Source: Pseudomonadota bacterium (GTDB taxonomy: Bacteria; Bdellovibrionota_C; UBA2361; OMIW01). Taken from it: a DNA stretch of 27,924 nt. Location: contig OMIW01000141.1 of NCBI GenBank assembly GCA_900299205.1, positions 1-27,924 of the forward strand, written 5' to 3'. The notes under the pieces are model-generated. The model made no database searches. It had not been told where the DNA came from and worked only from the letters and a program-made list of their open reading frames with translations. Position 1 is the stretch's first letter. Each line of letters opens with the position of its first letter. Both the position numbers and the translations under genes were made by a program. This document shows, piece by piece, positions 666 through 14,711 of the stretch.

Positions 666-2165
666 CTACGGCTGTCTGACAAAAACTCCGTGGGCAACCG
701 CTTGCGCCCTGTTGTGGACAAATGAAGGCGTTAATCCAAGGATAATTGATGCCGCAACCATTGATCCGATCACAATCCGGGTACCAAGGGGAGACACAAA
801 GTGCGGAGGAGTTACATCAGTTGCCTGTTGAACATACATGGCACTTATGACCCTGAGATAAAAGTAGCACGAAATGGCGGAACATATCGCGGCTACCACT
901 GCAAGCCCAACAAAATGAGATTGAACGACTACGCTTAGGAGATAGAACTTTCCAACAAGACCGACAGTCCCCGGAGGAAGCCCCGCCAGAGTGAGCAGAA
1001 AAAGGGTCATCGCCGCAGCAATTCGAGGATTAGTTCGTGAGAGTCCAGCAAAAGAACTGATATCATCCGCCGATGGTTGGTCGACACGATCACCAGTAAC
1101 AGCCATCGTGACTGCAAACGCACCGAAGGTAACCACTGAGTATGCAACTATATAAAAAAGAAGAGCTCCTCCGCCGGCCGCTCGCGCTCCCGGAGGCAGA
1201 AGCGCTGCTGTCATGTATCCCACATGAGCGACGCTTGAATACGCGAGCATCCTTTTTACGTTACGCTGCCGAACGGCAACTATATTACCAACGATCATGG
1301 TCAATAGCGCCACGGTCCAAGCACTACCAAGCCACCAACCCGCGACCTCGTTATGGCCAAAGCCATTCCAGAGGAGTCTCATCGCCATCGCCAACGCTGC
1401 GGCCTTGACCACACTTGCCATGTAGGCGGTGACTGGGGTAGGGGCTCCTTGGTACACGTCAGGCGCCCAGAAATGGAAGGGCACTGCACCGAGCTTGAAG
1501 AAGACCCCTACGAGAATCAGTCCCACTCCAAAAATAGCCGGAATTTGCCTCACCGATACCAACTCCCGGGCGATTACCGCAAGTTCAGTGCTTCCGGTAA
1601 CCCCATATAAAACCGACATACCGTACAGGAGAAATGCAGAGCTAAAGGAACCAAGAATAAAATATTTGAGAGCGCCCTCGACGCTCCTTCGAGAACTAAC
1701 CGCAGACCCACAGAGGCAGTAAAGACCCAGCGATAACGCTTCTAGTCCGACAAAAATGGTTATTAGCTCACCCGCTCCAACCAACACAATCGCACTGGCT
1801 GAAGTCATCAACAAGAGACCGTAATATTCAGGACTCGACGATATCCCAAGAGATTTAAGCCGACCAAACGACATTGCCACCACAACGAGTGTTCCCGTCA
1901 GCACCAATACCGTAAAGAACCATGTAACGGGGTCATGAAGAAATCCGGCTCCAAACAATCCTGCATTCAGGACGCCCGAAGCTCCCACACCAGCGGTGTA
2001 CCCACCCTCAAACAGGAACGGCACACTGAGGGCGACCAACAGGAGGGCAAGAGCCCCGAACGCTGGAATACGCTCTTCTCCTCGAGGCGCAAGAGCCAGC
2101 ACCATTCCACCCAAACCTAGTACCGCTGTCGGTATCACCGCGACCCATTGCGTGACATTTGTCAT
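666..2165 (-). CDS. nuoN: NADH-quinone oxidoreductase subunit N
   Basis: This is a membrane antiporter-like subunit of respiratory complex I that takes part in proton translocation. It has 499 residues, close to the roughly 485 of E. coli NuoN, and is almost wholly hydrophobic helices. The conserved charged residues of the family are visible: Glu142 in GLEALSLG, Lys224 in FFKLGAVPFHFWAPD, and Lys254 in the broken-helix segment after APTPVTAYMA. The ATG at 2165 is preceded by an AAGAAGGGG ribosome binding site. It is the last gene of the nuo run, 63 bases after nuoM and followed by a terminator. Identification is firm because NuoL, NuoM and NuoN are all present as three distinct paralogues in the usual L-M-N order. 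Confidence 0.97.
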   Translation of the reverse strand: MTNVTQWVAVIPTAVLGLGGMVLALAPRGEERIPAFGALALLLVALSVPFLFEGGYTAGVGASGVLNAGLFGAGFLHDPVTWFFTVLVLTGTLVVVAMSFGRLKSLGISSSPEYYGLLLMTSASAIVLVGAGELITIFVGLEALSLGLYCLCGSAVSSRRSVEGALKYFILGSFSSAFLLYGMSVLYGVTGSTELAVIARELVSVRQIPAIFGVGLILVGVFFKLGAVPFHFWAPDVYQGAPTPVTAYMASVVKAAALAMAMRLLWNGFGHNEVAGWWLGSAWTVALLTMIVGNIVAVRQRNVKRMLAYSSVAHVGYMTAALLPPGARAAGGGALLFYIVAYSVVTFGAFAVTMAVTGDRVDQPSADDISSFAGLSRTNPRIAAAMTLFLLTLAGLPPGTVGLVGKFYLLSVVVQSHFVGLAVVAAICSAISCYFYLRVISAMYVQQATDVTPPHFVSPLGTRIVIGSMVAASIILGLTPSFVHNRAQAVAHGVFVRQP

Positions 2166-2228: not shown

Positions 2229-3860
2229 CTAGAGCGACATCGGTCGGGAAGGATATTCACTTTGCTTCTGCATCAACACCCCCCGTGGGGCCATATCCTC
2301 AGGGATGAGTGCCTCCCGGGTCAGTTCAGACTCCCGAAGCACATGCGATCGCTCTTTTGTTATTTGGAGCGATCGCACCACGGAGGGCTCAATCAGATCA
2401 ACCAGAGGCTGAGGAAATAAACCGAGCCAAAATACGAGAATCAGCAAGGGGGCTAGGGTAACTGCTTCTATGAGGCGAATATCTGTTAGCCCTTCCCTAG
2501 CCGGATTCACCTCTCCGTACATGGTCTTCATGTACAGCGTCAGCATGTATACGGCTCCGAGCACAACACCAGCCAAGGCGAAAAAGGTTAGCATTGGATA
2601 GGTCTCATAGCTCCCCGACAGGATCATGAACTCCCCGACAAACCCGTTGGTTAAAGGGAGAGCTATCGAACTGAGCGTGAATAGTAAAAATAGCGTCGCA
2701 AAGACCGGTACCTTCGCGGCGATGCCGCCATAATCGGCTATTAGCCTTGTGTGAGTCCGATCATAGAGCACCCCAACAAGAAGAAAGAGAGCTCCCGTCG
2801 ATATTCCATGATTAATCATTTGAACAGTCGATCCTGTCACCGAGAGACTGGTACCGGCTACCAACCCCAGTACGCAATACCCCAGATGAGATACCGAGGA
2901 GTACGCGACCAGCTTTTTTATATCAAGCTGAACCCAGGCGATGCAGGCGCCATAAATTATCCCGATAACAGCAAGCGCCGCGAGATATGGAGCAAAAACC
3001 GCTGCCCCGTCAGGGAACAGCGGATATCCAAATCGAAAAAGGCCGTACAGCCCCATCTTCAGGAGAACACCTGCCAATACAACGGACCCTCCTGTCGGAG
3101 CCTCGACGTGCGCATCTGGCAACCAGGTATGAAGCGGGAATAGCGGTATCTTGATACACATCGCTAGGGCGAAGGCGGCAAAGAGCCATATTTGCTCCTG
3201 AAGGGTGAATCGTGCGTGCAAAAGATCGCCAAGAAGGAAGGAGGGAAGCTGCACTCCCGCCTGATCATACGCCATCCAAGACGTATAAAGAATCGCTACG
3301 AACATGAGAACGCTTCCGACCGCGGTATAAAGGACGAATTTCATACTCGCGTAAACTCGGCGCTTGCCCCCCCAGATGCCAATAATCAGGTACATCGGAG
3401 CAAGCATGAACTCCCAGAAAAGATAAAAAAGAAACAGGTCGAGGGCAACTAGAGTGCCCAGCATGGCAGTTTCGAGCACAAGCATACAGGCGAGATATCC
3501 GCGCACCGATTCATGAATTGAATGGGAGGAAAGCACTATCAAAGGCATCAGAATCGTGGTCAGCAGGATGAGAGCAAGACTTACCCCATCGATGCCCAAC
3601 TCGTATCGGACACCGAGGGCCTCAATCCACCGAAACGACTCCACTAACTGATAGCCCGGCTGATTCGACGAAAATCGACTCAGTGCAAGTAATGACAAAA
3701 TCAGAGTCATGACGGTGAAGCCGAGCGCCAATCCTCGTGACCGCAACTGCCCTTCTGGAGAGTCCCCCCCAGGAATTGCATAAAGAACGATGGCTCCCAG
3801 CAAAGGTAGCCAAACAAGTGCACTCAACAGAGGAAATCCGTCCAGTAACGCCATACTCAT
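2229..3860 (-). CDS. nuoM: NADH-quinone oxidoreductase subunit M
   Basis: This is the second large antiporter-like membrane subunit of complex I. About 543 residues, with Glu150 in FWEFMLAP, Lys237 in CIKIPLFPLHTWLPDAH and Lys268 in LLKMGLYG, the residues thought to relay protons in this family. The frame can be extended four codons to a GTG at 3872, but GGAGGAG at 3864-3870 fits the ATG at 3860, so that start is chosen. The protein is about 35 residues longer than E. coli NuoM because of a hydrophilic C-terminal tail (after the last helix, from about VRSLQITKERS), rich in Glu, Arg and Ser. The DNA of that tail holds a perfect inverted repeat, listed separately. Confidence 0.97.
   Translation of the reverse strand: MSMALLDGFPLLSALVWLPLLGAIVLYAIPGGDSPEGQLRSRGLALGFTVMTLILSLLALSRFSSNQPGYQLVESFRWIEALGVRYELGIDGVSLALILLTTILMPLIVLSSHSIHESVRGYLACMLVLETAMLGTLVALDLFLFYLFWEFMLAPMYLIIGIWGGKRRVYASMKFVLYTAVGSVLMFVAILYTSWMAYDQAGVQLPSFLLGDLLHARFTLQEQIWLFAAFALAMCIKIPLFPLHTWLPDAHVEAPTGGSVVLAGVLLKMGLYGLFRFGYPLFPDGAAVFAPYLAALAVIGIIYGACIAWVQLDIKKLVAYSSVSHLGYCVLGLVAGTSLSVTGSTVQMINHGISTGALFLLVGVLYDRTHTRLIADYGGIAAKVPVFATLFLLFTLSSIALPLTNGFVGEFMILSGSYETYPMLTFFALAGVVLGAVYMLTLYMKTMYGEVNPAREGLTDIRLIEAVTLAPLLILVFWLGLFPQPLVDLIEPSVVRSLQITKERSHVLRESELTREALIPEDMAPRGVLMQKQSEYPSRPMSL
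2344..2377. repeat. Perfect 11-bp inverted repeat with two GCGATCGC palindromes, inside nuoM 3' end
   Basis: The arm TGCGATCGCTC at 2344-2354 is repeated as its exact reverse complement GAGCGATCGCA at 2367-2377, separated by 12 AT-rich bases. Each arm contains the octamer palindrome GCGATCGC. In the nuoM reading frame the arms encode parts of the hydrophilic tail (VRSL and ERSH), so the hairpin is compatible with coding. The symmetry is seen directly; any role in mRNA stability or as a protein-binding site is inference. Confidence 0.75.
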
Positions 3861-3863
3861 TAT

Positions 3864-3870
3864 CTCCTCC
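3864..3870 (-). promoter_or_regulatory. Ribosome binding site deciding the nuoM start
   Basis: GGAGGAG lies three bases before the ATG at 3860 (the shorter AGGA core gives a more usual distance). The alternative GTG start at 3872 would lie upstream of this site and has no comparable site of its own. Confidence 0.7.
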
Positions 3871-3924
3871 ACCTCTCGGCTTTTCCGCTGTTCTTGTGTT
3901 CGGATCTTGTAAAAATGAGGGAAC

Positions 3925-5829
3925 TCACCAGACGAGATACACAGCTACCATCGTCGCGATCGCCCCAAAAAGATAGAGAGCATAGTGCCTTACGTCTCCC
4001 GTTTGCATCGTACGCACGAGCTCCCCTGATACCTCAACCACTTCAGCGGTCCCGTTTACTGTCCCATCGATAACCCCTTGATCGACGCCTCGCCACAACA
4101 CTCGCGATACTCCCTCTAACGGGCGAACGATGAGAGTCTGGTACACCTCATCGATGAAATATTTACCCTGCAAAAGCCTCAAAAGGAGGGGTATTGCCTT
4201 GGCGATCGCTGGAGGAACGGAGGCCAGAGGACCATAAAGAAATACTCCGATCAGCACACCAAGAACTCCGATCCACGACGCACCCAACGAATCAATCGGA
4301 GCGAGGGATTCATGAGCATGGGCTCGGGGAAGGACCGCCTCCAGGTAATGTGGGAGTGAATGCTCAAGCCCAATTCCACCAATCACCGCCAAAACCGCCA
4401 AGACAATGAGTGGAACCGTCATCTTCCATGGTGATTCATGCGGGTGCGCATGGCCTCGATATGAGCCGAAAAACGTCAACACAAGGGATCGGGTCATGTA
4501 AAAGGCAGTCAAGCCTGCAGTGACACTCGCAATGAGTACAATTATCGGAGCAGATGCCACGATTAGGCTATTTGGACTCTGACCTAGGGATGCCAAAATA
4601 GCGTGTTTCGAGTGAAACCCCGAAAATGGATAAATGCCGGCAATTGCTAAAGTGCTGATAAAATAGGTGATGAAGGTCACCGGCATCAGACGTCGCAAGC
4701 CCCCCATTTGCCGCATATCTTGCTCATGATGGCAACCATGAATTACTGAGCCAGCTCCGAGAAAAAGGCACGCCTTAAAGAATGCGTGGGTTATTACATG
4801 AAAGAGCGCGACCCAATAGGCTCCCGCCCCAGCCGCCAGAAACATGAACCCGAGCTGACTCACGGTCGAGTAGGCGAGAACTTTCTTTATGTCGTTCTGA
4901 GCAACCGCGATCGTCGCTGAGATAAAGGCGGTCAGAGCAGCAACGACAACAACAATAAGACCTAATTCAGCACCGGCCGAATCAAACACGAAGTGCGCCC
5001 TGGCAAAAAGATAAACACCTGCGGTGACCATCGTGGCCGCATGAATAAGTGCTGACACCGGGGTGGGGCCTGCCATTGCATCGGGCAACCACACAAAGAG
5101 AGGAAGTTGAGCAGACTTTCCCGTCGCGCCAATAAATAGACAAAAACCGATCAGGGTACAAACTGCCGCAAGTTTCGGGTCAAAGAGGGCGGCTGCCTCC
5201 CCCAATCGATCATTCAGCAATAAGAAATCGACCGTACCAAAGTGCTTGAGGAGAAGGAATATGCCCATGAGCACTCCTGCGTCCCCAATCCGATTGACTA
5301 CGAACGCCTTTCGACCCGCCCCACAATAATTTAGATTGCGAAACCAGAAACCTATGAGGAGGTAAGAACAGAGCCCGACCCCTTCCCAGCCGATGAATAG
5401 AACTAATAGATTCCCTCCCAAGACCAAAACGAGCATGGAGAAGAGAAAGAGATTTAGATACGCGAAGAATCGGGGCATGCCCTCATCATCCGCCATATAG
5501 GCGGTTGAATAGAGGTGGATGAGGGAGCCGATGCCCGTGATGACAAGACACATAACCGAGGACAATCGGTCTAAACGGAGCGTCATATCAAAGGCAACCT
5601 GCCCCACCCCGAACCATCGCCACAGATGCGCCTCTTTTATTGCTGAAGGGGCAAGGTCAAAAACCCCCTTTAAGGTCAAAGCGAACGCTACAATTGCCGC
5701 GAAGGTAGCGATTACTCCCGAAAAAACTCGGTTTTTGCGACCTAATCCATACGCTGCAGCCGCTCCTACGAGCGGTGCTAATGGAATCAGTGCGGGATCG
5801 AGGGAGGTAATAACCTGCCGAGTGTCCAT
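3925..5829 (-). CDS. nuoL: NADH-quinone oxidoreductase subunit L
   Basis: This is the distal antiporter-like subunit of complex I, which besides its transmembrane helices carries the long lateral amphipathic helix of the membrane arm. It has 634 residues, slightly above the 613 of E. coli NuoL. Visible family hallmarks are GWEGVGLCSYLLIGFW with Glu149, the ATGKSAQLPLFVWLPDAM segment with Lys238, and the following GPTPVSALIHAATMVTAG broken helix. The C-terminal region ends in a hydrophobic helix (YALYLFGAIATMVAVYLVW). The ATG at 5829 lies three bases after the nuoK stop codon, so translation is probably coupled. Confidence 0.98.
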   Translation of the reverse strand: MDTRQVITSLDPALIPLAPLVGAAAAYGLGRKNRVFSGVIATFAAIVAFALTLKGVFDLAPSAIKEAHLWRWFGVGQVAFDMTLRLDRLSSVMCLVITGIGSLIHLYSTAYMADDEGMPRFFAYLNLFLFSMLVLVLGGNLLVLFIGWEGVGLCSYLLIGFWFRNLNYCGAGRKAFVVNRIGDAGVLMGIFLLLKHFGTVDFLLLNDRLGEAAALFDPKLAAVCTLIGFCLFIGATGKSAQLPLFVWLPDAMAGPTPVSALIHAATMVTAGVYLFARAHFVFDSAGAELGLIVVVVAALTAFISATIAVAQNDIKKVLAYSTVSQLGFMFLAAGAGAYWVALFHVITHAFFKACLFLGAGSVIHGCHHEQDMRQMGGLRRLMPVTFITYFISTLAIAGIYPFSGFHSKHAILASLGQSPNSLIVASAPIIVLIASVTAGLTAFYMTRSLVLTFFGSYRGHAHPHESPWKMTVPLIVLAVLAVIGGIGLEHSLPHYLEAVLPRAHAHESLAPIDSLGASWIGVLGVLIGVFLYGPLASVPPAIAKAIPLLLRLLQGKYFIDEVYQTLIVRPLEGVSRVLWRGVDQGVIDGTVNGTAEVVEVSGELVRTMQTGDVRHYALYLFGAIATMVAVYLVW

Positions 5830-6181: not shown

Positions 6182-6688
6182 TTACTCACTCGCAATATTC
6201 GGAATCCTCGCGCGTCGCCCGAGCGTTACCGCTCCGACCACTGCAATAAGAATCAAAATTGAGGCAACCTCGAAACAATATACATAGTCGGTATACACAA
6301 GCTTCCCTATCGCTCGAACCGTCCCCTCCGGAGCTGAAAGATTACTTAGGCCAAGCCACCCATCCCAGATAGGGACCACGGTAAGCAGAAAGAACCCCGC
6401 AATAATCGCCGCGCCGACCCGCAAAATAAAATCACTCTTTTTGCCCGCCTCGCCCTTCACATTAAGCAGCATTAATACAAAAAGAACGAGTACGACAATC
6501 GCTCCCGCATACACAAGTATTTGAACAGCCGCGAGAAAATGTGCGTTCATGGCAGCATAAAAAGCTGCCACCGTTATAAGATTCCCAACAAGCGCGAGTG
6601 CACTCACAATCGGGCTTCTCGCCGCCACTACAGAAACCGCCGAAATTAGCATGCACACCGACAAAATCGCTATCGTTACCGACATCAT
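6182..6688 (-). CDS. nuoJ: NADH-quinone oxidoreductase subunit J
   Basis: This membrane subunit of complex I has 168 residues and about five hydrophobic segments. The conserved stretch AVQILVYAGAIVVLVLFVLM is the third transmembrane helix characteristic of NuoJ/ND6. Two adjacent ATG codons (6688 and 6685) follow GGGAGCAAGGAG; either may be used. In typical operons nuoI precedes nuoJ, but here only 72 bases separate nuoJ from nuoH and no ferredoxin-like frame fits, so nuoI is absent at this locus. Confidence 0.95.
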   Translation of the reverse strand: MMSVTIAILSVCMLISAVSVVAARSPIVSALALVGNLITVAAFYAAMNAHFLAAVQILVYAGAIVVLVLFVLMLLNVKGEAGKKSDFILRVGAAIIAGFFLLTVVPIWDGWLGLSNLSAPEGTVRAIGKLVYTDYVYCFEVASILILIAVVGAVTLGRRARIPNIASE

Positions 6689-6760: not shown

Positions 6761-7852
6761 TCATCCTTGAGCGATTACCAACCGAACGGCCGCCGTGATC
6801 ATTAAATTCACCATAGAGAGAGGCAGCAACACCTTCCAACCAAGCGACATCAACTGATCGAATCTAAATCGTGGAAGGGTCCACCGGATGATAATCTGGA
6901 GCATCGATAGGGCGATTACTTTCCCCATTAATACTCCATGCCCAACGAGAGCAGCCCACCAGAGCCCCTCCGGCAGAGTGATAAACGGAATCTCCCAACC
7001 ACCAAAAAAGAGAATGGCCAGAAGTAGAGAGAAAAGACCGATCTCCGCAAACTCCCCCAACCAAAAGATCAGGAACTTCATCCCGGAGTATTCGGTGAAA
7101 TACCCTGCTACCAATTCCGATTCACTCTCGGGAAGGTCAAAGGGTCCTCGTTTGGTCTCAGCCATCCCTACTATAAAAAGTATAAAAAATCCAAGTGGCT
7201 GGGAGAATATTCCCCAATTAAAGATCGACCCCGCCTGCTGACGAACCATTTGATATGGATCGAGAGTTTGAAAAATGACAACGGCAGTGACAAAACAGAG
7301 CCCCATCGCAAGCTCGTATGAAACCATTTGAGCCGCAGCTCGCAATCCCCCGAGGAGAGAGAACTTGTTATTACCCGTCCAACCCGCCATCGCCACCCCG
7401 TAGACGGCGAGCGAACCCATCGCGAGAATAAAGAGCAAGCCCGAATCGATTGGCGCGACCTGGGGAAGAATCGTGACGCCCCCAATGGTGAAAGCTGGGG
7501 CCATCGGGATCGCCGCGAATGCGACGAAAACGGGGAGAACAGCAAGAAGCGGGCCCAGCGCATGCATGACCGTGGAGGTTCCCTCAGGAACGAAATCCTC
7601 TTTGAGCAGAGCCTTTACGGCGTCACACAGAAGGGTGTTTATAACCCCAAGAATACCCAGCCAGCGAACGACGAAGAACGCTGGACGAAGCGGTGCAATC
7701 GAAGTTGTGAAATATGCCCCTGCCCGATTGGCGCCGATCCGATTCTGAATAAGAGCTGAGCCCTTTCGCTCGAACCACGTACAAAAGGAGGAAAGGCCCA
7801 TGATAATATTAAAGAGGACGAAAACCTTGACCCCAAGAATCAACAATTCCAT
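6761..7852 (-). CDS. nuoH: NADH-quinone oxidoreductase subunit H
   Basis: This membrane subunit connects the quinone chamber of complex I to the proton-pumping arm. It has 363 residues; E. coli NuoH has 325. Both family signatures are clear: the WFERKGSALIQNRIGANRAG loop near the N-terminus, and PFDLPESESELVAGYFTEYS in the middle, whose acidic loop forms part of the quinone-linked channel. AGAGGAATGT directly precedes the ATG at 7852. An 87-base gap separates it from nuoG upstream. Downstream, the nuoI gene expected before nuoJ is missing. Confidence 0.97.
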   Translation of the reverse strand: MELLILGVKVFVLFNIIMGLSSFCTWFERKGSALIQNRIGANRAGAYFTTSIAPLRPAFFVVRWLGILGVINTLLCDAVKALLKEDFVPEGTSTVMHALGPLLAVLPVFVAFAAIPMAPAFTIGGVTILPQVAPIDSGLLFILAMGSLAVYGVAMAGWTGNNKFSLLGGLRAAAQMVSYELAMGLCFVTAVVIFQTLDPYQMVRQQAGSIFNWGIFSQPLGFFILFIVGMAETKRGPFDLPESESELVAGYFTEYSGMKFLIFWLGEFAEIGLFSLLLAILFFGGWEIPFITLPEGLWWAALVGHGVLMGKVIALSMLQIIIRWTLPRFRFDQLMSLGWKVLLPLSMVNLMITAAVRLVIAQG

Positions 7853-7939: not shown

Positions 7940-9664
7940 CTATGTCGCGAGCACAACCCCACCAGCCTTTATATCTTTCAGGCGCAAGCCCTTGAGCCGC
8001 TCCTCTGAGGACAGAATCCCTAACGTAAGCTCCCGGTCGTTTTGAGAAGGAACCAGCGCACCCCCGGAGATGGTGGACCACTCATTGAGCACTCTCCATT
8101 CAGGCATGGTTCCCTCAGGTAACTCAACCACTCGATCGGTGTACTGCAGGTGGTAGCCACGGTTGACGACCAAGCCACTTTTTTCGAGGATACTGCGACC
8201 GGGGATTACCACAGAGACCGTTGAAACCAAAGGATTCGTCTTATCAGTGCCGATGAACAAAGAGGTCTGACATCCCTGTACCGCTGATAATATCTCGGCA
8301 TCGAGATCCTCACGTGCTATCGCGCGCTCTCCGATGAAGAACACTCGGGAGAACACCCCCCCCCGAAGTTTGCGAATCGCCATCTCATATCGATCCCCTA
8401 AGAACTTCTCCCCGAAAGATCCATCTCCGCCCAATTCGCCACCCTCTTCGCGACGAAAGAGCTGCCCAATCTGTGCTCCCCGGAAATTGGCCGCATAATC
8501 AGGGCTGATAAGGATCTTTTCAACAGAGGTTAGTTCCCGCTCCCGATATGCAAGGGCTACAAAAGCCCGGGGCATTCGCGCTTGGATAAAGCGACGAAGA
8601 ACAACATACTCCTCAAGGACAAGGTCAGGCGCAACAAATATTGCCGCCTCATCCTCGGAAGACTTGGGAAGAGCACGAAGGGCTTCAGTTAAAGTGACCG
8701 GCTTCCCCCCTACTGATGGTGATGTAAGCCTATCTCGAGGGAGAAATCGACCAAAACCGTACCGGCCCTCATCACAGAGCCATTCCTTATTCACCGCCTG
8801 ATTATAACGGGCCTTCACCTGCACGACCTCGTGCGCGTCCCGAACGGCCACCCGAACATTGCACCCTGTTGAACAACCGGGGCAAATTGCGTCAGTCTGC
8901 TTGGAAAACCATATCCGGGAGTTAAAACGCCACTCCCGATGAGTCAGTGCACCGACTGGACAAAGATCCACCACGGTTCCCGAGAGTGGGTTGTCGAGCG
9001 GTCGATCAGGACTAACCGCGATAACAGTGCGATCTCCCCGATTGAGGAGCCCGATTTCTGAGGTCCCCGTTATCTCGTCACAGAAACGAACACAGCGGGA
9101 GCACATAATACATCGCTCACCATCAAGCATCACCGTCGGTCCGAGAGGTTCGGCCTTAACCTTGTGGACTTTATCTTCGAGAAATCGGCTGGGACGACCG
9201 TTATATTCGTAATGATAGTCCTGTAATTTACAATGACCTGCTTGATCGCAGACGGTACAATCCAAGGGATGGTTCGCCAGGATAAACTCGAGGACTGATG
9301 CTTGGCCCTCAACGACCCCCGAATCGGTGGCCTGGGTCGTGACCTCCATCCCCTCTGTTGCACCGGTATTACACCCGATCGATAGCCGAGGCACTCCCTT
9401 CACCTGAATCTGGCACATCCGACAGTTACCAGCTATTGAGAGGTCGGGGTGATAGCAATAATGGGGGATGTCCTTACCAAGTAAGCGAGCAGCCTCAATG
9501 ATATTGGTTCCTTTGCGAACGCGAACTTGAGCACCATCGATCGTAACCGTGACCAAATCGCTTTCAGGCACACCTGATTGCGTCACAATTGTCACTGCCT
9601 CCGGGCCGAATCCACTCTGCCCAGATGTTACATTTCCTGAGGTATCGGAAGGAGTTCCTGTCAT
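7940..9664 (-). CDS. nuoG: NADH-quinone oxidoreductase subunit G (short form)
   Basis: This iron-sulfur subunit of the peripheral arm carries electrons from the NADH module toward NuoI/NuoB. Ligands can be read off: Cys70, 81, 84 and 98 for the 2Fe-2S cluster N1b; His132 with Cys136, 139 and 145 for N5; Cys185, 188, 191 and 235 for N4; and Cys251, 254, 258 and 287 for the extra cluster N7, found only in some bacteria. At 574 residues it is much shorter than E. coli NuoG (about 900), with a reduced molybdopterin-oxidoreductase-like C-terminal part; the frame ends normally, so this looks like a compact form and not a break. About 35 non-conserved residues precede the 2Fe-2S domain. Its ATG overlaps the nuoE stop as ATGA, in the place where nuoF normally lies. 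Confidence 0.95.
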   Translation of the reverse strand: MTGTPSDTSGNVTSGQSGFGPEAVTIVTQSGVPESDLVTVTIDGAQVRVRKGTNIIEAARLLGKDIPHYCYHPDLSIAGNCRMCQIQVKGVPRLSIGCNTGATEGMEVTTQATDSGVVEGQASVLEFILANHPLDCTVCDQAGHCKLQDYHYEYNGRPSRFLEDKVHKVKAEPLGPTVMLDGERCIMCSRCVRFCDEITGTSEIGLLNRGDRTVIAVSPDRPLDNPLSGTVVDLCPVGALTHREWRFNSRIWFSKQTDAICPGCSTGCNVRVAVRDAHEVVQVKARYNQAVNKEWLCDEGRYGFGRFLPRDRLTSPSVGGKPVTLTEALRALPKSSEDEAAIFVAPDLVLEEYVVLRRFIQARMPRAFVALAYRERELTSVEKILISPDYAANFRGAQIGQLFRREEGGELGGDGSFGEKFLGDRYEMAIRKLRGGVFSRVFFIGERAIAREDLDAEILSAVQGCQTSLFIGTDKTNPLVSTVSVVIPGRSILEKSGLVVNRGYHLQYTDRVVELPEGTMPEWRVLNEWSTISGGALVPSQNDRELTLGILSSEERLKGLRLKDIKAGGVVLAT

Positions 9665-10218
9665 ATTACCTCCGACTTAGGACAACCGGGCAATCCCCCA
9701 GACATGGCATCGGTTACTGAAGACAAACGAAGATTGGGCTGTTCTTTTTCAATTCTATCGAGCAATGCTTCCAGCTTTTCGGGGTCCAGGTTTTCAAAAT
9801 AAAAATCATTTATCTGGACCATCGGAGCCGTGCCACAAGAACCGAGGCACTCAACTTCCTCGAAGCTCCACAACCCATCAGAGGTCGCCTCGTGTGCTTT
9901 GGTACCAAATCGTTTTTTTACGCACGACGTCAACTCGGGCGCCCCCCTAACTGCGCACGAAAGGGTGCGGCACACCTGAACGTGATAGCGGCCGACCGGC
10001 TTTTTGTAGTACATCGTATAGAACGATGCCACCTCCATCACATGAACTGGAGGAATACCCAGCCGAGAAGAGACCCACCGAACCGCCTCTTGCGATATAT
10101 GACCGAAATGCTGCTGCGCAAGGTACAGCGCTGGCATAATGGCCGAACGAGATTGCGGGTACTGCTTCTTTACCTCGACTAATTTTGCCTCAAAATCGGC
10201 TGGCAAATCGACATCCAT
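9661..10218 (-). CDS. nuoE: NADH-quinone oxidoreductase subunit E
   Basis: This thioredoxin-fold subunit of the NADH-oxidising module has 185 residues. The N-terminal helical part (residues 1-75) and the ferredoxin-like part are both complete. The 2Fe-2S cluster N1a ligands are visible as Cys83 and Cys88 (CRTLSC) and Cys124 and Cys128 (ECLGSCGTAP). NuoE normally works bound to NuoF, which carries FMN and the NADH site; no nuoF lies in this window and NuoE is not fused to one. The protein ends with a short polar tail (GGLPGCPKSEVI). It overlaps nuoG by four bases. Confidence 0.96.
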   Translation of the reverse strand: MDVDLPADFEAKLVEVKKQYPQSRSAIMPALYLAQQHFGHISQEAVRWVSSRLGIPPVHVMEVASFYTMYYKKPVGRYHVQVCRTLSCAVRGAPELTSCVKKRFGTKAHEATSDGLWSFEEVECLGSCGTAPMVQINDFYFENLDPEKLEALLDRIEKEQPNLRLSSVTDAMSGGLPGCPKSEVI

Positions 10219-10321: not shown

Positions 10322-11569
10322 CTACCTGTCGCACTCCCCCCCAATCATGTTGATCATGCCAAAAGTGGGCACAATATCCGCGACCGATTGGCCGACGAGC
10401 ATCTTCTTCATCGCACCCATATGGATAAAGCTCGGCGCTCGCACATGAACTCGGTACGGCCTCCCGGTCCCGTCAGAGACCACAAAGAATCCTAGTTCTC
10501 CATTCCCCCCTTCGACCATCTGGTAGACGTCACCCACTGGAGGTTCAATCCCTTTTATGACCAACTCAAAATGGCTGATCATACCCTCGATCGATCCATA
10601 CACCTCATCTTTCGGAGCAAGAACTATCCTTGGATTATCGACTGAGATCGGCCCCTCTGGCAAACGGGCCATCGCCTGCTCACAGATCCGCATCGACTGC
10701 TCCACCTCCGCCATCCGCACCTGGAATCGGTCGTAATTATCCCCCTTACTGCCCAGCGGGACCTCAAAATCAAAATCCTCGTATGATGAGTATGGGAATG
10801 CCTTTCTCACGTCATACGAAACACCCGAAGCACGAAGCAGAGGACCTGTTATCGAGTATGCTATTGCCTCATCAGCCGAGAGGACCGCTACGTCGCACAT
10901 GCGGTCAATAAAGATTCGATTTCGACTTAAGAGCTTATCACTTTGCTCTACCTGAAATCGGACCTGTTTGAACGCTGCTGCCATTCGAGTCGCAAATCCA
11001 TCCGGAAGATCGGACTTAAGACCCCCTACTCGCCCGTACGAAATCGTCAAACGAGCTCCGGTAACCTCCTCAACAAGCTCCCACAACGCCTCACGAGCCT
11101 GCATGAGGTACAGCATCACGGTAAAAGCACCGAGCTCCATGGCCGACGCTCCAAGGCAAGTCAGGTGGTCGGAGATCCGCGATATTTCGGACATAACCAC
11201 CCGGACATACTGACACCTTTTTGGCACCTCGATACCAAGTAATTTTTCGACGGTGAGACACCAACCTACATTGTTAATGATCGGCGAAACGTAATTGAGC
11301 CGATCCGCATAGGGCATTACCTGATTATAATCGACGGTCTCACACATCTTTTCAAAACCGCGATGCAAGTAGCCCACCTCGACTTCTGCATCGATAATCT
11401 TTTCATGCTCAAGTTCAACCACCAACCTAACCGTGCCATGTGTTGCCGGATGGGCAGGCCCCATGTTGAGTATCATCGTCTCGGTGTGGAGATCATCCCC
11501 GAGTGCTCGGGGTCGCATATGGGTGGTTACCCCCCCTGCTCCATAATCAACATTCAGAAGATCGCTCAT
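10322..11569 (-). CDS. nuoD: NADH-quinone oxidoreductase subunit D
   Basis: This 49-kDa-type subunit forms much of the quinone-binding pocket of complex I, next to NuoB. It has 415 residues, the usual size for a separate NuoD (in E. coli it is fused to NuoC; here it is not). Recognisable elements are the GPAHPATHG loop with the quinone-pocket histidine, the MPYADRLNY motif with the quinone-contacting tyrosine, and the C-terminal IGGECDR end, as in other stand-alone NuoD proteins. It follows nuoC after 86 bases. Its obligate partner NuoB is not encoded in this window. Confidence 0.97.
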   Translation of the reverse strand: MSDLLNVDYGAGGVTTHMRPRALGDDLHTETMILNMGPAHPATHGTVRLVVELEHEKIIDAEVEVGYLHRGFEKMCETVDYNQVMPYADRLNYVSPIINNVGWCLTVEKLLGIEVPKRCQYVRVVMSEISRISDHLTCLGASAMELGAFTVMLYLMQAREALWELVEEVTGARLTISYGRVGGLKSDLPDGFATRMAAAFKQVRFQVEQSDKLLSRNRIFIDRMCDVAVLSADEAIAYSITGPLLRASGVSYDVRKAFPYSSYEDFDFEVPLGSKGDNYDRFQVRMAEVEQSMRICEQAMARLPEGPISVDNPRIVLAPKDEVYGSIEGMISHFELVIKGIEPPVGDVYQMVEGGNGELGFFVVSDGTGRPYRVHVRAPSFIHMGAMKKMLVGQSVADIVPTFGMINMIGGECDR

Positions 11570-11655: not shown

Positions 11656-12270
11656 CTATCGATTCGCCGATTCCGTCCCCCTTCGGCGCGGGCTAATTGC
11701 CACCAGCTCGGGTCTCTTCATATCGATAGCTGTATTTCGTACCTCCGGAGCCCTGAGTGGAATGCGCGGCTGTTTGCCTTGGACAGGATAATCTTTCCGG
11801 AGGGGATAGCCCTTGAACTCATCGTACATCAGGATGCGACGAAGGTTAGGATGTCCCCGGAAAACCACGCCATACATATCCCAAGCCTCTCTCTCCATGA
11901 AGTCAGCACCTGGCCACAGGTCCGACACCGAGTCAACAACTGCATCGCCCTCCGGTGCCCAGACCCTCACTCTTAACCGCGCATTCGTGGAGAGAGATAA
12001 AAGGTGATAAACCACCTCGAAACGCTCCTCGGCACTGTCCATCCAATCGACAACGGTAACGGAGACAAACATATCGAAGCGATAGATAGGATGTGATTTC
12101 AGCTCCTCAAAAAATCTGCGCTGATGCCCCCGTTCACACCACACTTCGAGGTCCCCGAGCCGAACCCTTGACCTTGTAACCAAGGGGGCCCCATCGTGCT
12201 GAAGAGCGGCCACCGCTACCTGCACCTCTTCCGGCGAATTTCTGTTCGCCAAACCCGACTGAGAACCCAT
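11656..12270 (-). CDS. nuoC: NADH-quinone oxidoreductase subunit C
   Basis: This 30-kDa-type subunit of the peripheral arm has 204 residues from the chosen start. The family signature is intact: EREAWDMYGVVFRGHP followed by RILMYDEFKGYPLRKDYP. The frame stays open to a GTG at 12402, adding 44 residues of unusual Gly/Arg-rich composition, but the ATG at 12270 has a strong AAGGGGGG site just upstream and gives a family-like N-terminus. It is the first gene of the run: nuoA and nuoB, which normally precede it, are replaced by a divergent helicase gene. Confidence 0.94.
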   Translation of the reverse strand: MGSQSGLANRNSPEEVQVAVAALQHDGAPLVTRSRVRLGDLEVWCERGHQRRFFEELKSHPIYRFDMFVSVTVVDWMDSAEERFEVVYHLLSLSTNARLRVRVWAPEGDAVVDSVSDLWPGADFMEREAWDMYGVVFRGHPNLRRILMYDEFKGYPLRKDYPVQGKQPRIPLRAPEVRNTAIDMKRPELVAISPRRRGTESANR

Positions 12271-12274
12271 GTAT

Positions 12275-12282
12275 CCCCCCTT
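12275..12282 (-). promoter_or_regulatory. Ribosome binding site deciding the nuoC start
   Basis: AAGGGGGG lies four bases before the ATG at 12270 on the minus strand. The longer frame starting at 12402 has no comparable site, so the shorter NuoC is preferred. Confidence 0.65.
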
Positions 12283-12425
12283 AGCCTTCTCCGCCCGATG
12301 CCCACCCTGCGAACATCCACGAAACCGCACCCCTCGTGGGAACGCTCCGGAAAATCCGCCCCCCAGGTCCATCACCACCTCGGCACGGCTTTCTCGCCAC
12401 ACTGAGTGGCCTGAAACACTACCCT

Positions 12426-12599: not shown

Positions 12600-14711
12600 A
12601 TGTTTATAGCAGTGTCGTTTTTGCCTGGTTGTATGAATTCTGTTTTGACCCCAGAGGAACTTGCGATTATTGCGGAGGAAGAGGGCATTCTCCGCACCGT
12701 AATGATCGGTCTTCAACTCCAAGAAGCCGACCAAACGCGGCGACTTACGGTCGAGACCAATCGGGCCCGAAGACTTACTCACGAATTAGTTGCATCTCGA
12801 AGATTCGAAGAAAAGGCCTCTATCGGAGATCAGGAGCGACTTTCGCACACTCTCAAGGAAAGGAGCGAGGAAGAGGTCGAGCGCCTCCATGCCCTTCTCA
12901 GTAGACCTTATTTTGCCCGCCTTGTAATCCAGGAGGAATCCGATTCAGGACCTGTTGAGCGAGAGTTCAAGGTAGGGCACTTCCCGAACGGCAACTGTCG
13001 TATCGTCGATTGGAAAAAGGCGCCACTATCAAAATTATATTACCATTACAAAGAGGGTGATGAGTTCGCAGAGGAAATTCAGGGGATTGATCGATACGGT
13101 ATCATAACGTTGCGACGTCAGGTCGATATTGAACAAGGAATTCTCCGAAAAGTAACCTATTCTGGCGGATCTCTCGTTTTAACAGACAACGGCTGGCGCA
13201 GAGGAGGAGATCAGGCGGTTGGGACATCCGCTTCTTTCTCTGCATCTTCGAGCCTTCCTGACGTCCTCTCTTTCATCTCAGCGAACCAATTTGACGCCAT
13301 AACTCGAGAAGCTCAGTCTCCTGTCCTCATTCAAGGAGTGGCAGGGTCTGGGAAGACCACCGTCGCTCTCCATCGAGCCGCTTGGCTGTTCAGCGAGTGT
13401 CGAGATGAAATCGCTCCCGACAGAAGTGCCATCGTTGTGCTCAACCCATTACTGAGGAGCTATATCAAGAATTCTCTCGAAAAACTCTCGGTACCCAGCG
13501 TGACCGTGTACACGCTGCCAGAATGGACATCTAAAACGCTCAATTTGGGCTCAGAATCTCGAGCCACGACCGCTGTGAACGGCTCCGCCGCAAGCGTCTC
13601 TGCGAGAACAAGTGGCACCCTTATTCGACACTTGGAGCCTCTCATCCGAGAGCATTCTTTTTTAAACGAATATCCGGGAGAAGCGATCGGCAGTCTCGGT
13701 CGAGGGTTCCTAGAAAATATTCGCTCTTTGTTGATTGCTGCCCTATCTTCACATTCCAATCAAATCCACCAGCAATCAAAAAAGGTAACTCGGCACTTGG
13801 ACGGGGTCCAGGAAGCAATCGCTTACTACTCTTCGATTCAAGTCGACGAATTCGACCGGCACGACCTTATGCTCGCCCTCTGGATTCAACTTGAGGCTCT
13901 CCGCATCGGAAAAGATTTACCCTTTGACCCAATTCTCTATGATGCGATCATTGCCGATGAAGTCCAGGATTTGAACGCGATCGAGCTGTCATGCATCGCC
14001 CTCGCCGCAAAAAATTCCCGAGGGCTTACCCTCGTCGGAGATTCAGCACAACAAACCGAGCGTGACGATTCCCTGCCCGGCTGGTCATTTGTGCGCGAGG
14101 TGCTCCGTAAACCAAATGAACCCGAGGTGCCTCTCATACACCTCACGGTTCCATACCGGTGCACCCTGCCAATTATGCAGTTCGCTGCCGCATGCCGGGG
14201 CGATGAGCTTCCTAATGAAGGTCGCACCGGACCTCGTCCTCTCTGGGTTCGATGCAAGCGGGAGGAAATAGGGCACGCTCAGATGATCCAGTGGCTCACC
14301 CACGCATTACAGGTTCATCCGGGCACTCTCTGCTCAGTTCTGTGTGCGTCGCGGGAGGAGGCTCGAATAGCCGCGTCTCTCCTGAAGCCAACTTTTGGTA
14401 ATTTACTTGAATTAGCAGACCCGAGCGCTTTCACCCTCGACGAGGGAATCCTCGTTAGCGACATCTCACTTGCGAAGGGACTGGAGTTCTCATCCGTTGC
14501 CCTCTGGAATCCGAGTAAAAAGAAGCTCCCCGACTCTCCCCTTTCGGCGAACCTTCTGTATGTAGCCGCGACCCGGGCACAGGATGAGCTTTGCGTGATT
14601 AGCTGGGAACAGCCATCACCCCGGCTCCCAGGGTTCCACTCTGCCCTCGTTGATGCCTATACTACGGACAACGAAGAGCCAGTGGAGCCTGCGAACCATG
14701 ATCACCAATGA
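12600..14711 (+). CDS. helD: HelD-like superfamily 1 helicase (RNA polymerase recycling ATPase)
   Basis: HelD proteins are UvrD-like ATPases that enter RNA polymerase and release it from DNA and stalled complexes. The 703-residue protein shows the HelD layout: a charged N-terminal region (about 15-100) likely to form the coiled coil that enters the secondary channel, then PYFARL and the IVDWKKAPLSKLYY motif matching the VDWRaPisslyY signature of HelD, then the helicase core. Core motifs are GVAGSGKTTVALHRAAWL (Walker A, about 246), DEVQD (Walker B, about 453), LVGDSAQQT, PYRCTLPIMQFA, LAKGLEFSSVAL and LLYVAATRAQDEL. The VALHRAAWL continuation separates HelD from UvrD, Rep and PcrA. The start is uncertain: neither ATG 12600 nor ATG 12633 has a clear ribosome binding site. 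HelD is best known from Gram-positive bacteria. The gene overlaps the next one by 14 bases. Confidence 0.85.
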   Translation: MFIAVSFLPGCMNSVLTPEELAIIAEEEGILRTVMIGLQLQEADQTRRLTVETNRARRLTHELVASRRFEEKASIGDQERLSHTLKERSEEEVERLHALLSRPYFARLVIQEESDSGPVEREFKVGHFPNGNCRIVDWKKAPLSKLYYHYKEGDEFAEEIQGIDRYGIITLRRQVDIEQGILRKVTYSGGSLVLTDNGWRRGGDQAVGTSASFSASSSLPDVLSFISANQFDAITREAQSPVLIQGVAGSGKTTVALHRAAWLFSECRDEIAPDRSAIVVLNPLLRSYIKNSLEKLSVPSVTVYTLPEWTSKTLNLGSESRATTAVNGSAASVSARTSGTLIRHLEPLIREHSFLNEYPGEAIGSLGRGFLENIRSLLIAALSSHSNQIHQQSKKVTRHLDGVQEAIAYYSSIQVDEFDRHDLMLALWIQLEALRIGKDLPFDPILYDAIIADEVQDLNAIELSCIALAAKNSRGLTLVGDSAQQTERDDSLPGWSFVREVLRKPNEPEVPLIHLTVPYRCTLPIMQFAAACRGDELPNEGRTGPRPLWVRCKREEIGHAQMIQWLTHALQVHPGTLCSVLCASREEARIAASLLKPTFGNLLELADPSAFTLDEGILVSDISLAKGLEFSSVALWNPSKKKLPDSPLSANLLYVAATRAQDELCVISWEQPSPRLPGFHSALVDAYTTDNEEPVEPANHDHQ

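Follow-up and report, generated by a model that had tools for sequence, protein, structure and literature searches.

A complex I gene cluster in which nuoE adjoins nuoG, in a genome that encodes nuoF at a separate locus

The window (the whole stretch of DNA analyzed, 27,924 nucleotides long) carries on its minus strand the genes nuoC-D-E-G-H-J-K-L-M-N, the main complex I cluster of the genome. The cluster and its divergent neighbor are laid out as follows:

12600..14711, plus strand: UvrD-like helicase gene, divergent from nuoC (PF00580/PF13538)
11656..12402, minus strand: nuoC (TIGR01961, 138.7 bits, above the cut-off)
10322..11569, minus strand: nuoD (TIGR01962, 500 bits, above the cut-off)
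9661..10218, minus strand: nuoE, with N1a ligands C83, C88, C124 and C128 (TIGR01958, 163 bits against a cut-off of 142.4; PF01257)
9661..9664, minus strand: ATGA overlap of nuoE and nuoG, the site of nuoF in relatives (from the sequence and the relatives' C-D-E-F-G order)
7940..9664, minus strand: nuoG, in a short form (574 aa) that carries the N1b, N5, N4 and N7 ligands (best match TIGR01973, 367.5 bits, below the cut-off of 470)
6761..7852, minus strand: nuoH (profile match)
6182..6688, minus strand: nuoJ (profile match); nuoI is not between nuoH and nuoJ but on contig C170
5833..6138, minus strand: nuoK (PF00420)
3925..5829, minus strand: nuoL (TIGR01974, 691 bits)
2229..3872, minus strand: nuoM (TIGR01972, 583 bits)
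666..2165, minus strand: nuoN (TIGR01770, 367 bits)

Elsewhere in the window, the plus strand between 17882 and 24515 holds genes that, by the look of their sequences, would encode DUF58, transglutaminase-like membrane, TPR and MoxR-type AAA ATPase proteins.

The TGA stop codon of nuoE, at 9661, overlaps the ATG of the nuoG frame by four bases (ATGA), and a GGAGG lies four bases upstream of that ATG. No nuoF frame is found within the window, so the four-base overlap without nuoF that had been read from the sequence at the outset stands, although the word “fused” does not if taken literally, nuoE and nuoG being two separate frames. The cluster lacks nuoA, nuoB and nuoI as well. The claim that both proteins retain all of their cluster ligands is also borne out, since the N1a set of NuoE is complete and NuoG has those of N1b (C70/81/84/98), N5 (H132/C136/C139/C145), N4 (C185/188/191/235) and N7 (C261/264/268/297). 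A Pfam scan of NuoG finds the Fer2_4, NADH-G_4Fe-4S_3, Fer4_Nqo3 and Molybdop_Fe4S4 domains; the protein is too short to reach the TIGR01973 cut-off, and its best match is still NuoG. The overlap ATG is a plausible, not a certain, start for NuoG, since homology with relatives begins about 33 codons in and the relatives themselves begin about 5 to 20 codons before the core. Three in-frame GTG or TTG codons lie 65 to 89 bases downstream of this ATG. The longer N-terminus of NuoG could be thought a scar of nuoF, but a by-eye comparison showed no likeness between the two.

The genome to which the window belongs is a metagenome-assembled genome (MAG) of 2.45 Mb in 206 contigs, 90% complete, and it was searched for single protein families. 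Exactly one Complex1_51K protein was found in this 90% complete genome, on contig C135 (8041-8559). It is a NuoF of 422 aa that scores 567 bits with TIGR01959, against an equivalog cut-off of 558.65, and has the PF01512 and NADH_4Fe-4S domains. It aligns along its length with Nqo1 of Thermus (2fug_1, 1.8e-123) and with other solved NuoF chains. The glycine-rich GRGGAGFPTGTKW and the motifs NADESEPG, GAGAYICGEET and NNVET are all kept, and the N3 cysteines are present as C345xxC348xxC351 and C392. The last three of these motifs line the FMN/NADH site of Nqo1. The search of the rest of the genome that the original prediction had called for thus returned one match, with both the flavin and nucleotide motifs and the N3 cysteines, and of the two options then offered, it is the one placing nuoF elsewhere in the genome that holds.

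The other missing subunits are likewise found on other contigs. The nuoB gene is on C129 (L066), where it adjoins a methionyl-tRNA-synthetase-like gene, and its product is over the Pfam cut-off. The nuoI gene is on C170 (L067); NuoI is the best match, but its 103 bits fall short of the 113 that TIGR01971 sets as its cut-off, which is true of NuoI in all 28 genomes searched. The nuoA gene is on C78 (L186). With nuoF, nuoA, nuoB and nuoI on four other contigs, all 14 subunits are encoded, across five contigs.

The second option was that the NADH module had been rewired, so that another protein would pass electrons to NuoE and NuoG from some donor in place of NADH. An operon without nuoF invites this reading, and a NuoF without FMN is known in NUO-2 of Nitrospina gracilis (PMC3578206). 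However, the single NuoF of this 90% complete genome is canonical, with FMN/NADH motifs and N3 ligands, and its ortholog lies between the same NuoE and NuoG in relatives. Rewiring would also require that this canonical NuoF serve another complex, but there is no other Complex1_51K protein, and thus no competing flavoprotein of that family, in the genome as searched, and the only homolog of NuoE is the window's own. Since the sole Complex1_51K protein of the 90% complete genome is a canonical NuoF, we reject a change of donor as extremely improbable.

The gene order of relatives shows where nuoF would once have been. In the families of the same order other than f11, every genome in which the cluster was read (13 genomes) has nuoE and nuoF adjacent, in the order C-D-E-F-G or as much of it as the contig holds. 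The UvrD-like divergent neighbor flanks the E-F-G cluster in nine of these 13 (G002, G003, G004, G006, G007, G012, G014, G017 and G019), and since the window has the same neighbor, it represents the same locus, formerly with nuoF. This helicase gene accompanies the locus in many families of the order. The outgroups from the class (G029, G031, G033 and G034) have E-F-G too. The comparison of gene order that the original prediction had proposed therefore cuts both ways: relatives with the standard order at this locus do exist, and F left an ancestral C-D-E-F-G, but the junction is not made spurious by this.

The family f11 has the same junction as the window. In all nine genomes in which both loci were read (G010, G013, G016, G018, G020, G021, G024, G026 and G027), nuoG comes straight after nuoE, and a different contig carries nuoF. 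Two further f11 drafts lack a gene, nuoF in G025 and nuoE in G023, and these absences are probably draft gaps. The junction is also seen in the public records L106, L107, L108, L113, L115, L116 and L133, several of which belong to genomes already named. That f11 shares the junction supports the earlier view of an established arrangement and not a recent deletion. The neighbors of nuoF in f11 (a phosphodiester-glycosidase-like gene and unknown genes) are identical across the six genomes compared and differ from those in the window's genome, where nuoF lies 212 bases behind clpS-clpA.

One could still suppose that the true place of nuoF is between nuoE and nuoG and that assembly or binning dropped or misjoined it, the genome being a fragmented MAG. 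However, nine f11 MAGs show the E-G junction too, as do the named public records. Also, nuoF is not at a contig break but has flanking sequence of about 8 kb on one side and about 4 kb on the other, and the contigs are alike in GC (0.52-0.55). In gene trees, the NuoF of C135 clusters with NuoF of the same order, which means that it is not on a stray contig. The recurrence of the junction across f11 genomes leads us to reject an artefact, which has hardly any likelihood left.

Some differences between the families concern the rest of the cluster. NuoM of f11 (L069, L071, L073, L077 and L079) is 40-43% identical to the window's, compared to 56-62% in the E-F-G families read, and NuoN is 39-42% identical in f11 compared to 43-51% in the E-F-G families. 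NuoD, NuoH and NuoK are about equally close to the window's in both. It is possible, judging from these identities, that the distal membrane genes of f11 have evolved faster or been replaced. In three other MAG records (L125, L126 and L174), nuoH comes directly after nuoE and the cluster contains neither nuoF nor nuoG; Complex1_51K proteins are encoded elsewhere in each of the three genomes. One of these, L125 (CAMBFS010000088.1), is titled Klebsiella pneumoniae, with a cluster C-D-E-H-J-K-L-M and a NuoE 48% identical to the window's. This cluster looks unlike an enterobacterial nuo operon, and the MAG is probably mislabeled.

Whether nuoF left the cluster once, in a common ancestor, or twice, in the window's family (f1) and in f11, is a closer matter, and two departures have a little less than an even chance. 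The differing contexts of nuoF speak for two events, as does the UvrD-like neighbor, which the window retains and which was not seen at the f11 cluster. These two observations fit either two events or one event followed by rearrangement. In the rpoB tree the window and f11 do not group together, and a quick combined IQ-TREE needs two changes, with the node left open. Against this, a FastTree of concatenated NuoC-H groups the window with f11 inside the E-F-G families (support 0.99), a FastTree of NuoC-H plus rpoB again groups them (0.96), and a single clade survives an AU test on rpoB (p 0.54). A tree of NuoJ-N was set aside, the contigs being truncated and too much data missing. A more elaborate proposal, that nuoF is a separately regulated unit in this order (behind clpS-clpA in the window's family), which would let the NADH-oxidizing capacity of complex I be set apart from the remaining enzyme, and that the separation arose twice, appears very unlikely.

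It is highly probable from the genes found that the window's cluster and the outlying genes together encode a standard 14-subunit proton-pumping NADH:quinone oxidoreductase with a relocated nuoF. NuoF has its N3 ligands, NuoE those of N1a, and NuoG those of N1b, N4 and N5, as complex I demands, and the connecting module (NuoB, C, D and I) and the membrane subunits (A, H, J, K, L, M and N) are present as well. In the scheme we propose, nuoF would have given up its place between nuoE and nuoG for a locus of its own, leaving nuoE joined straight to nuoG, with nuoA, nuoB and nuoI likewise at separate loci. Once translated from its own locus, NuoF would assemble with NuoE and NuoG into the usual NADH-oxidizing N-module. 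Electrons would then pass from NADH to the FMN of NuoF, to N3, to the clusters of NuoE and NuoG, to NuoI and NuoB, and on to quinone. Gene content, motifs and the relatives' gene orders are matters of observation; expression, assembly, NADH-dependent quinone reduction and proton pumping are predicted, and relocation as the origin of the separate nuoF is inferred. The enzyme is almost certainly of the usual NADH-driven kind, with its gene order rearranged. Dispersal of complex I genes is general in the class, since the class relatives searched have nuoB and nuoI outside the main cluster (about 12-16 kb from each other in G001, G003, G007 and G012), and with nuoF it has gone one step further. 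In practical terms, an operon without nuoF in a draft genome does not equal a swap of electron donor, and reading the main cluster alone would miscall the lineage as having an NADH-less complex I.

Other complexes show how such a cluster might be read. The complex I-like enzyme of 11 subunits, which has no NADH module and occurs for example in Desulfitobacterium hafniense (PMC11238625), resembles the window in having an operon without nuoF. An enzyme of that kind lacks NuoE, NuoF and NuoG, whereas all three are encoded here. Nitrospina gracilis offers a nearer likeness, since its NUO-2, a second complex described in 2013, has a nuoEGD cluster with nuoF2 and nuoB2 separate (PMC3578206). This means that nuoE and nuoG clustered without nuoF are already a published arrangement. 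The NuoF2 of that complex reportedly has extra clusters and no FMN site (PMC3578206); in contrast, the NuoF found here is canonical and the sole copy, with FMN-site motifs present and no added Fe-S domain in a Pfam scan of its 422 aa.

The canonical Nuo/Nqo enzyme, Nqo1-14 of Thermus thermophilus, is matched in all 14 subunits, and the FMN, NADH and Fe-S ligand motifs of NuoE, NuoF and NuoG are kept. The differences are that the genes are on five contigs and not in a single A-N operon, and that NuoG is short. Work on E. coli by Oppermann in 2022, cited in PMC12361115, reportedly found, as its title has it, that complex I assembly does not require a particular order of the nuo genes, which fits the unlinked N-module genes seen here. 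The present genome adds a natural example of a complex I with unlinked N-module genes, and otherwise little beyond annotation. Set beside these systems, it is a known enzyme in a rearranged gene order, a case of ordinary operon dispersal.
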